A DNA stretch of 64,000 bases from Alphaproteobacteria bacterium (GTDB lineage Bacteria; Pseudomonadota; Alphaproteobacteria; WRAU01; Hepatincolaceae), in contig WRAU01000001.1 of assembly GCA_009780035.1 (NCBI GenBank), positions 1 through 64,000 on the forward strand. The letters are read 5' to 3'. Below, in pieces: positions 2,227-53,446 of the stretch (the stretch's first letter is position 1; each line of letters begins with the position of its first letter). Position numbers and translations under genes: made by a program. The notes below the pieces were generated by a model, which was given only the letters and a program-made list of their open reading frames with translations, made no database searches and was not told the DNA's origin.

Positions 2227-2302
2227 GCAGGTAGTAGCTTAAGGAGTAGAGCATAGCCTTTGGTGGCTAATGGTGTAGGTGCAAATCCTACCGCCAGCAC
2301 AA
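2227..2302 (+). other. tRNA-like fold (degenerate tRNA or tRNA mimic)
   Basis: The plus strand folds as a near-tRNA: TA at 2235-2236, D-stem GCTT/GAGC (2237-2240, 2249-2252) with a loop containing GG, anticodon stem TAGCC/GGCTA (2254-2258, 2265-2269), a five-base variable region, T-stem GTAGG/CCTAC (2275-2279, 2287-2291) with loop TGCAAAT. Defects: the anticodon loop has 6 bases (TTTGGT), the acceptor stem pairs only about 5 of 7 with one extra base, and there is no CCA. It is therefore either a decayed phage tRNA (perhaps Pro-like) or a structural mimic. It lies in an otherwise gene-free control region. Confidence 0.4.
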
Positions 2303-44221: not shown

Positions 44222-45580
44222 ATGTTTTATTTTTCTAACAATAAAGATAGTTTAAAAGAAATCTCTTTACTATCTTTTCCCATAGCTTTAGATTTATTGT
44301 TTTTATTTTTAATTTTCTTTTTAGATTCTTGGTTCTTATCGTATATATCCGATGATATTGCTGGAAGCATAGGGTCTTTGTTTTCTATTTTTGGTATTTG
44401 TGCAGTGATATTTAGAGCAATATCCCAAGCAGGAACAGTGCTGGCATCAAAATATATGGGAATGAATGAAATAAACAAGTCTAGGGCTGTTGTTTCCATA
44501 TCAATTAGTATTAATTTACTATTTGGGTTATTACTATCTGCCTTGGCTATTATTTTTTCTAAAAAAATTGGACTCTGGTTGGGGTTAAATGAAGAACAAA
44601 ATATATATACTACTATATATTTACAAATAGTTGGAGCATCGTTAGTATTTTTATGTTTGCGTTATGCTCTTGCTAGCAGATTATATATTTCTAAAAATAG
44701 CATTAGTAATATGGTAATTACTATTATTATGCTTGTAAGCAGCACTATTTTTAATATTCTTGCTATTTTATTTCTAAAAGGAAATATTAATATGCTAATA
44801 GGTATTAGCCTAGGGACTATGTTATCTCAAATATTATCGGTGATATGTTTATTATATTTTGTAAAAAAAGAAGATAATAGTTTTTATAAATTATTCTCTA
44901 TTAAATTACTTTTATGTAATTTTATTACATTTTATAAAAAGTTATTTAGTATTTTACTACCAGTTACTGCTGAACCTATTGTTACCCAATTTATTAATAT
45001 AGCATTTACAATTATTGCAATTAATATATCAGCATTGGCTTTAACTGCAAGAGTATATGTTACCAACTTGCAGTTCATAATACTGGCATTTTCTTTAGCC
45101 TTTTCCATCGGAGCTCAGATACTAATATCAAACTATTTTGGAGCAAAACAGATAGAAAAAATTAAGAAATCATTTTTTAACAGTATATTTTTATTAATTT
45201 TAATAACACTTTTACTATCTTTACCAGTATTCATTTTAAAAGAGAACCTTTTTAATATTTTTACAAATAATGGAGATATAAAATTATTGGGTTTGCAAGT
45301 TATTTATATTTGTTTATTAATAGAATTTATTAAAATTTTAGGATTAATGTCAACATTTTCACTGGTTGGAATCGGGGATAGCGTATACCCTAATATTTGT
45401 AGCATATTATTAATGTGTTTTATTACTTTGCCTTTAAGTATATTTTTTGTATTCTACTTAAAAGCAGGATTAATTGGCATATTTGTAGCCCAGCTAATAG
45501 AGGAATCTCTTCGTGCGAGCATATTATTTCATAGATTTATCTTGAAAATAAAAAGAATGGGAGAACTCCATTTGCACTGA
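44222..45580 (+). CDS. MATE-family efflux transporter
   Basis: A 452-residue protein with 12 membrane helices and MATE features (SWFLSYISDDIAGSIGSLFS; ASKYMGMNEINKSRA; ISNYFGAKQIEKIKK; LVGIGDSVYPN). MATE pumps export drugs or natural products using H+ or Na+. It closes the island, likely exporting the product. It ends in TGA, one of only two TGA stops in the window; read-through would add just five to six residues before TAG. Confidence 0.85.
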   Translation: MFYFSNNKDSLKEISLLSFPIALDLLFLFLIFFLDSWFLSYISDDIAGSIGSLFSIFGICAVIFRAISQAGTVLASKYMGMNEINKSRAVVSISISINLLFGLLLSALAIIFSKKIGLWLGLNEEQNIYTTIYLQIVGASLVFLCLRYALASRLYISKNSISNMVITIIMLVSSTIFNILAILFLKGNINMLIGISLGTMLSQILSVICLLYFVKKEDNSFYKLFSIKLLLCNFITFYKKLFSILLPVTAEPIVTQFINIAFTIIAINISALALTARVYVTNLQFIILAFSLAFSIGAQILISNYFGAKQIEKIKKSFFNSIFLLILITLLLSLPVFILKENLFNIFTNNGDIKLLGLQVIYICLLIEFIKILGLMSTFSLVGIGDSVYPNICSILLMCFITLPLSIFFVFYLKAGLIGIFVAQLIEESLRASILFHRFILKIKRMGELHLH

Positions 45581-52447: not shown

Positions 52448-52589
52448 TTTTTCCGCAGATTCAAAATATCTTCCTATATTTTATTTTCTTCTTAACATAC
52501 CTTGCATGTATAACATATAAGTATATTGTAATCTATAAATTTACATATTTATAGTAATTTGTAGAATATAAACATACAAAATAAAAGAA

Positions 52590-52618
52590 TTGACAAATTA
52601 ATTCTTTTGATGCATAAT
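52590..52618 (+). promoter_or_regulatory. consensus promoter of tRNA-Trp(UCA)
   Basis: TTGACA (52590-52595), exactly 17 bases, CATAAT (52613-52618). This is among the best sigma-70 sites in the window and lies 48 bases before the tRNA, so the tRNA is probably well expressed. Confidence 0.75.
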
Positions 52619-52666
52619 ATTATTATAAAAATTAATCATAAGAATAAATTTTATTTAGAGTATTAT

Positions 52667-52740
52667 AGGAGTGTAGCTCAATGGCAGAGCAGCGGTCTTC
52701 AAAACCGCCAAAGTGGGTTCGATTCCTACCTCTCCTGCCA
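52667..52740 (+). tRNA. tRNA-Trp with UCA anticodon (UGA-reading)
   Basis: A 74-base class I tRNA. Acceptor AGGAGTG/CTCTCCT with A1-U72 and discriminator G73, the tryptophan identity set; D-stem GCTC/GAGC; anticodon stem GCGGT/ACCGC perfect with loop CTTCAAA, giving anticodon TCA where ordinary bacterial tRNA-Trp has CCA; T-stem GTGGG/CCTAC; CCA encoded. One U-U mismatch lies at 6-67. It is too short for tRNA-Sec. Such a tRNA decodes UGG and UGA as Trp, as in mycoplasmas and some reduced symbionts. Confidence 0.88.
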
Positions 52741-52754
52741 AAAAATTTAATCTT

Positions 52755-52838
52755 TTAGATTTATATGTTGTTGCAAGGTAGCTCATGTATGTTTATACAC
52801 TTCACCGCCTTGCTCCTAATATAAACTATAAAATCTAA
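52755..52838 (+). repeat. nested palindromic element (TCATGTAT core), copy 1
   Basis: GCAAGG (52773-52778) pairs with CCTTGC (52808-52813) around TCATGTATGTTTATACACTT; outer arms TTAGAT..ATCTAA also match. Related to 57232-57331 by its shared core and a following TCCT..TATAAA. Confidence 0.55.
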
Positions 52839-52914
52839 ATTTTATAAAAATTTAGCCTTTTAATGCAAGAAAATCGTTGTTATTTAATGCTTAATGGATT
52901 ATTCTTATTTTAAC

Positions 52915-53361
52915 ATGCAAAACATGTATACAATTGGGTTTAGCGGTAAAAAGCAAAGTGGATTTTTTGAAATTTTGCATGTGTCAGACATAACAAAATT
53001 GCTAGATATTCGCCTATATAGAACATCTTGCTTTGTGCCATGGGCGAGCAGCGGAAATCTTGCCAAAGATTGCCATAATCATAATATTGACTATGCGGTA
53101 ATACCCGAAATGTTTCCAACTGGCGAGTTGCTAAAATCCTACAAAAATAGGGCAATTGACTGGACTAGCTACGAGCAAATTTTTAATAACCTGCTAGCAG
53201 ACCGCCAAGTTGAAAAATTATTTTCCCCAGAATCGTTAAACAACATATGCTTTCTGTGTTCTGAAAAATCTGCAGATATGTGCCACCGCCGATTAGTTGC
53301 AAAAACATTATACAGATATACATATAATCTATTTGTAATAAATCTAATAAAATCACCCTGA
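52915..53361 (+). CDS. DUF488 family protein, 3' end formed by a palindromic element
   Basis: A 148-residue DUF488 protein. MYTIGFSGKKQSGFFEIL is the usual opening; LLDIRLYRTSCFVPWA and CFLCSEKSADMCHRRLVAKTL are the two family hallmarks. Starts 52894, 52915 and 52924 are all in frame; the last two fit the family start best. The role of DUF488 is unclear (nucleic-acid or regulatory links proposed). Its TGA stop (53359-53361) lies inside the left arm of the palindrome at 53358-53446, so the C-terminus was probably changed by insertion. Confidence 0.75.
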   Translation: MQNMYTIGFSGKKQSGFFEILHVSDITKLLDIRLYRTSCFVPWASSGNLAKDCHNHNIDYAVIPEMFPTGELLKSYKNRAIDWTSYEQIFNNLLADRQVEKLFSPESLNNICFLCSEKSADMCHRRLVAKTLYRYTYNLFVINLIKSP

Positions 53362-53446
53362 AGCTAAAGCAGAAAGTAATATTTAATCCATTGACCTTGC
53401 TCTTGCAAGAGTCAGGATTAAATATTACTTTCTGCTTTAGCTTCAG
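53358..53446 (+). repeat. 89-bp palindromic element with 32-bp perfect arms
   Basis: Left arm 53358-53389 and right arm 53415-53446 are perfect reverse complements over 32 bp; the 25-base centre contains the palindrome CTCTTGCAAGAG. It overlaps the DUF488 stop and lies between convergent genes, so it also could act as a two-way terminator. It resembles rickettsial palindromic elements in form. Confidence 0.8.

Follow-up and report, generated by a model that had tools for sequence, protein, structure and literature searches.

The 64,000-nucleotide stretch of DNA analyzed here (the window), from a member of the Hepatincolaceae, carries a tRNA gene with the body of a tRNA-Trp and the UCA anticodon of an opal suppressor; this raises the question of what UGA means to the bacterium. 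The identity of the gene, first proposed from the window sequence, is borne out by further comparison: ARAGORN reads the anticodon as TCA, the Rfam tRNA family matches with 63.6 bits, the acceptor end has A1-U72, G73, and an encoded CCA, with a single mismatch (U6-U67) in the acceptor stem, and tRNA-Trp(CCA) is the closest of the genome's tRNAs, with 62 identical positions versus at most 55 for the others compared. The consensus promoter described ahead of the gene is also present, as TTGACA-N17-CATAAT at 52590-52618, and the tRNA starts about 48 bases 3' of it. ARAGORN labels the gene SeC because of the anticodon alone; a selenocysteine tRNA would indeed have TCA at this place, but the gene is 74 nt long and lacks a long variable arm, its body is closest to tRNA-Trp, and no SelB match over the family cutoff was found in the genome, so that we discount this identity almost entirely. 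The gene is the sole UCA tRNA found in the genome. Among 385 genomes of the class, a UCA anticodon arm turned up in one; a scan of 85,000 species for the pattern returned almost exclusively mycoplasmas, and two viral contigs also hold it. Between duplication and transfer as the origin of the gene, its 74 bases gave no resolution. Judged by its sequence, the tRNA very probably reads UGA as tryptophan.

For the host at large, UGA is still a stop codon. The genome, which spans 1.42 Mb on 17 contigs at 98.8% completeness, keeps an intact prfB, encoding RF2 with its GGQ and SPF motifs, a tRNA-Trp(CCA) gene, and a single intact trpS encoding tryptophanyl-tRNA synthetase. UGA terminates 65 of the 1,074 open reading frames (ORFs) in 1.25 Mb of the genome (6.1%); an NCBIfam check took in ten UGA-ended ORFs, and in rpoD, murC, prfA, dusB, rdgB, rph, and rsmH the UGA lies at or near the end of the profile. 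In three relatives of the family, UGA ends 4.7%, 3.0%, and 0% of sampled ORFs, and its rarity as a stop is therefore family-wide rather than a consequence of the tRNA. The window itself is poorer still in UGA stops (69 of its 71 nonoverlapping ORFs of at least 100 amino acids [aa] terminate in TAA or TAG), which, given the genome figure, is a matter of chance. Among UGA-ended host genes, 36% have a backup stop in frame no more than three codons on, versus 23% of other genes (P = 0.02), an excess that fits occasional read-through; no such difference was seen in the sister genus G001, where only 9 genes end in UGA.

The original prediction had thus described the window correctly: UGA stops are nearly absent (it counted 80 of 82 genes ending otherwise), the only two are those that it listed, read-through of either would add few residues (Table 1), and no in-frame TGA was seen in the window genes, including those of the prophage, which takes no part in UGA recoding. 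It was also right that UGA is rarely used for tryptophan. The step from there to a lineage in or past UGA-to-Trp codon capture, for which the few UGA stops of the window and the UCA tRNA could be cited, does not survive the genome-wide view. RF2, tRNA-Trp(CCA), and UGA stops elsewhere, which the prediction itself had named as evidence to the contrary, are all present, the last of these in essential genes; ordinary genes show no well-supported sense UGA, and UGA stops are equally rare or rarer in relatives. We regard codon capture as very improbable.

Where UGA is used as a sense codon became apparent from a search of nearly the whole genome for TGA codons flanked on both sides by same-frame coding signal. 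Such codons cluster in a handful of loci of phage origin and in an amidase gene, all outside the window (Table 1), and the search found no sense UGA with strong support anywhere else. Two further long matches were rejected because the TGA is an ordinary stop and the coding signal behind it belongs to the beginning of a neighboring gene (by eye, we take these to be rppH-like and dut-like), and the remaining TGA-spanning matches were short and weak. A putative Gly-rich repeat protein on contig C12 (L176, about 1279, minus strand) carries a UGA at a place taken by WAA in the following repeat copy. Of the 6,580 codons in the 28 genes of the T7-like operon, the tail locus, and the amidase, 26 are UGA and 39 are UGG; UAA and UAG are absent. 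Within the tail locus, most tryptophan codons (17 of 25) are UGA. The UGA codons show no clustering toward the 5' ends of genes. No UCA tRNA was found inside the UGA-bearing loci: the tRNA is on contig 1, and the loci are on contigs 2, 3, 4, 6, and 9 and more than 100 kb away on contig 1. Misbinned contigs of a code 4 organism were ruled out, since the loci have host genes on either side and the T7-like operon is collinear with that of a sister genus.

Table 1. Features of the window and of the UGA-bearing loci (C1, C2, and so on are contigs of the same genome; positions without a contig are those of the window)
Feature	Position	Strand	Details
tRNA-Trp, anticodon UCA (opal suppressor), encoded CCA end	52667-52740	+	ARAGORN, Rfam, tRNA comparison
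tRNA promoter (predicted)	52590-52619	+	TTGACA 52590-52595, CATAAT 52613-52618; one of nine near-identical genome sites
Operator-like core, weak dyad	52599-52617	+	Type TTATnC-N7-GTATAA; overlaps -10 element
9-bp inverted repeat (candidate)	52583-52608	none	AAAAGAATT-N8-AATTCTTTT, over -35 element
TGA stop of ORF 44222-45580	45578-45580	+	Read-through gives 7 extra residues
TGA stop of ORF 52894-53361	53359-53361	+	Read-through gives 1 extra residue
T7-like head-tail operon, 10.5 kb	C9:42348-52895		Terminase phrog_2, portal/connector PF12236, capsid PF19821, tail proteins phrog_394 and phrog_376
Tail locus	C6:39904-51713		Phage lysozyme, DUF276 (PF03434) protein, tail-collar genes, weak tape-measure match
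Tail-collar cassettes	C4:~0.1-0.9k; C3:44720-45433; C1:163692-164402
AmiD-type amidase	C2:156075-156803		Amidase_2 (PF01510)
Promoter site, tail operon	C6:39786		UGA-bearing tail genes
Promoter site, DUF276 gene	C6:43926		UGA-bearing tail gene
Promoter sites, tail-collar cassettes	C4:951; C3:45494; C1:164444		UGA-bearing tail genes
Promoter site, orphan leader	C4:79115	-	No recognized UGA gene
Promoter site, orphan leader	C1:70525	+	No recognized UGA gene
Promoter site upstream of rimP-like gene	C3:125821		No recognized UGA gene

The capsid of the T7-like operon is nearest, among named phages, to HTVC010P-type podoviruses, and no integrase or replication gene was seen in the operon. The tail locus might be guessed to encode a contractile tail; single-sequence structure predictions for two of its proteins reached a mean pLDDT of 33 and 35, and the names sheath and hub for them therefore remain guesses. 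Three queries against viral contigs (the sheath-like protein, the capsid, and the DUF276 protein) returned no relatives; a phage collection yielded relatives of the capsid and none of the sheath-like protein. The tail-collar cassette on C1 has, besides its UGA codons, a one-base frameshift near its start, which could reflect a pseudogene, phase variation, or an assembly error.

That UGA stands for tryptophan in these loci is strongly supported by comparison with relatives. The T7-like operon has the same gene order in this genome and in two sister genera (G001 and G002), and in G001 it adjoins the same mnh-like genes; the terminase homologs of both are without internal UGA, and the other operon homologs have uninterrupted frames under the standard code. 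Aligned with the UGA codons, the sister genera show tryptophan in 12 cases, one N, one Q, and two gaps, so that 12 of the 14 aligned residues are Trp. Because the sister genera share the operon without UGA, and with the same host flank in G001, its UGA codons appear to have arisen on the chromosome. The amidase is present in 45 of the 58 relatives searched and contains UGA only in the present genome. Homologs of the tail locus were not found in other genomes, so that the assignment there depends on intact reading frames and on paralogs; in one column of the tail-collar paralogs, one copy has UGA and another has UGG. Decaying prophage genes with nonsense mutations, to which the tRNA would be unrelated, offer a hardly credible account of this pattern. 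Phage-derived loci often decay, and one cassette is frameshifted, but the genes counted above lack UAA and UAG even though their 274 CAA and CAG codons are one step from a stop, UGG turns into UAG as easily as into UGA, and relatives have tryptophan at most of the aligned sites; the stop spectrum and the aligned residues contradict pseudogene decay.

A rare predicted promoter with an operator-like core is common to the tRNA and most of the UGA-bearing loci. The tRNA promoter is identical to that of the tail operon at 24 of 30 positions. With a promoter matrix built from such sites and applied to the whole genome, nine sites scored above 30, compared with 16.4 for the best outsider and 19.0 for the best control on reversed sequence; a site at C12:1998 (27.8, coaBC-like) was drawn into the matrix by iteration and is left out of the nine. 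In leave-one-out runs every site was recovered, with only training sites scoring above it, and a matrix built from the other eight ranked the tRNA site first among untrained positions; the spacer alone also ranked it first, among 1,810 sigma-70-like sites. The core dyad, untrained, recurs ahead of the T7-like operon at a distance of 412 bp (score, 19.7; control maximum, 16.1) and before the amidase (17.6 and 14.7; same control). At both places a correctly spaced -35 element is not conserved, so there is no full promoter at normal spacing, and in G001 and G002 the sequence ahead of the operon gave no match to the core. The motif does stand before another G002 gene, by eye presumably tail-collar-like, which uses UGG codons, and promoter control may therefore predate the UGA codons.

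The two orphan leaders share a conserved GTGATGTAAA ... AGGAGG ... ATCATG and have no recognized product; they may be what is left of lost cassettes, or they may be short RNAs. The element TATGTTGTTGCAAGG ... CCTTGCTCCTAATATAAA is repeated behind two of the nine promoters, that of the tRNA (window 52765-52830) and that at C3:125821 (C3, about 125.6k). Directly 3' of the TGA stop of ORF 52894-53361, the window has two arms of about 38 bases each that form a near-perfect inverted repeat (53362-53444). Two related tRNA-like sequences, at window 2234-2292 and at C5:2712-2778 (L034 511-583), score 33 and 32 bits, have TGG in the place of the anticodon loop, and are called by ARAGORN in neither case; the C5 copy is near a repressor-like gene, and both are possibly phage-borne tRNA mimics. 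A gene that we take, by eye, to be DinD-like lies just upstream of the tail operon (C6:38867-39670; L205 8867-9670), and the T7-like operon of G001 has a presumably ImmA/IrrE-like gene, also labeled by eye, upstream of it; both neighbors are candidate links to stress control.

We propose, with a probability of roughly three in four, that this chromosomal tRNA is an opal suppressor co-regulated with its targets and serves as a lock on partly domesticated phage particles, wired as a coherent feed-forward loop. For the cell in general UGA stays a stop, served by RF2, and the UCA tRNA would insert tryptophan at UGA in the particle genes and the peptidoglycan amidase. One shared regulator would release the promoters, so that mRNAs and suppressor tRNA are made together and, with part of the ribosomes inserting tryptophan at UGA, full-length proteins result; with the regulator off, translation of stray transcripts would end at UGA through RF2. 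The outcome would be a lock against leaky making of particles and lysis enzymes, a potentially lethal program, and the particles might serve in DNA transfer or in the killing of competitors. We lean, with somewhat more reserve, toward the specific form of a natural, host-run feed-forward catch, in which the tRNA is co-induced with the dispersed particle genes and the lysis-type amidase, nearly all of which need UGA read-through. The regulatory role of the tRNA is one that we infer, and some findings count against it: three of the promoter sites precede no recognized UGA gene, the tRNA has its acceptor mismatch, and one tail-collar cassette is frameshifted near its start. At least one UGA is found in 7 of the 8 genes of the T7-like operon that need tryptophan and in 13 of the 14 in the tail locus; compared with random placement this excess is modest (P = 0.02 and P = 0.11, respectively), and a selected lock therefore falls short of proof.

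Two other histories could have left a suppressor tRNA beside UGA-bearing phage genes. The less probable of them, which we consider rather unlikely, is ordinary phage recoding: the loci and the tRNA would have come from phages in which UGA means tryptophan, the tRNA would since have moved elsewhere on the chromosome, and the whole would be a leftover without a host switch. Phages with recoded stops are known from hosts that use the standard code, UCA tRNAs of this type occur in phage contigs, and the preference for UGA in the tail locus is like that of a recoded phage. Such a leftover, however, is at odds with the UGA-free T7-like operon of the two sister genera, next to the same host genes in G001, and with an amidase that is a class-wide gene; nor would a promoter common to the tRNA and the dispersed loci be expected. 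Alternatively, the suppressor tRNA may have arisen by chance, and particle genes under both weak expression and weak selection may then have gathered UGG-to-UGA changes of no regulatory benefit. This neutral course, which we find unlikely, agrees with the AT richness of the genome, with UGA codons that do not gather near gene starts, and with the modest one-per-gene excess, but the affected genes are all of one functional group, and the tRNA has their promoter.

If the co-regulated lock is real, a bacterium reads a single codon in two ways in parallel and uses the second as a lock on dangerous genes, a circuit that we found described only as an engineered device; in literature searched mostly outside subscription journals, no described natural chromosomal case was found. 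Late-gene regulation by stop-codon recoding would become testable in sister genera with and without the tRNA. Standard annotation would truncate such genes, and capsid, terminase, tail, and amidase would appear short or broken.

Bacteria using code 4, such as mycoplasmas and some symbionts, read UGA as tryptophan with a tRNA-Trp(UCA). The present genome has such a tRNA but, unlike these bacteria, keeps RF2 and UGA stops and confines sense UGA to one gene set. Phages with recoded stop codons and suppressor tRNAs have reportedly been described by Borges et al. in 2022. Suppressor tRNAs let phages with recoded stops translate their structural genes in standard-code hosts (Peters et al. 2022, PMC9523058; PMC10879173), regulation of late genes has been proposed for such recoding (cited through PMC10879173), and theta ribozymes occur beside phage suppressor tRNAs (PMC10879173). 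The likeness is that a suppressor tRNA would here, too, permit phage-type structural genes with in-frame stops in a standard-code host, with UGA at apparent tryptophan positions. Recoded phages encode the suppressor tRNA themselves, whereas here it is chromosomal and apart from its dispersed targets, some of these have been passed down within the family or class and are free of UGA in relatives, and a promoter appears to be common to the tRNA and its targets.

Gene transfer agents such as RcGTA and CcGTA resemble the present system in that a head-tail cluster is kept in sister genera without replication genes and in that lysis and fiber genes are unlinked. The head genes here are T7/HTVC010P-like, which to our knowledge those of RcGTA are not; the putative control by a suppressor tRNA also sets the present case apart from both agents. 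A close parallel to the proposed circuit is synthetic: in an Escherichia coli feed-forward leak damper built on a suppressor tRNA, one opal codon cut the leak 37-fold and kept 30% of the signal (PMC7969014). There, as in our model, suppressor tRNA and stop-bearing gene are induced together; the damper is engineered and plasmid-borne, whereas the natural case, known here from sequence, would extend the same principle to many genes.
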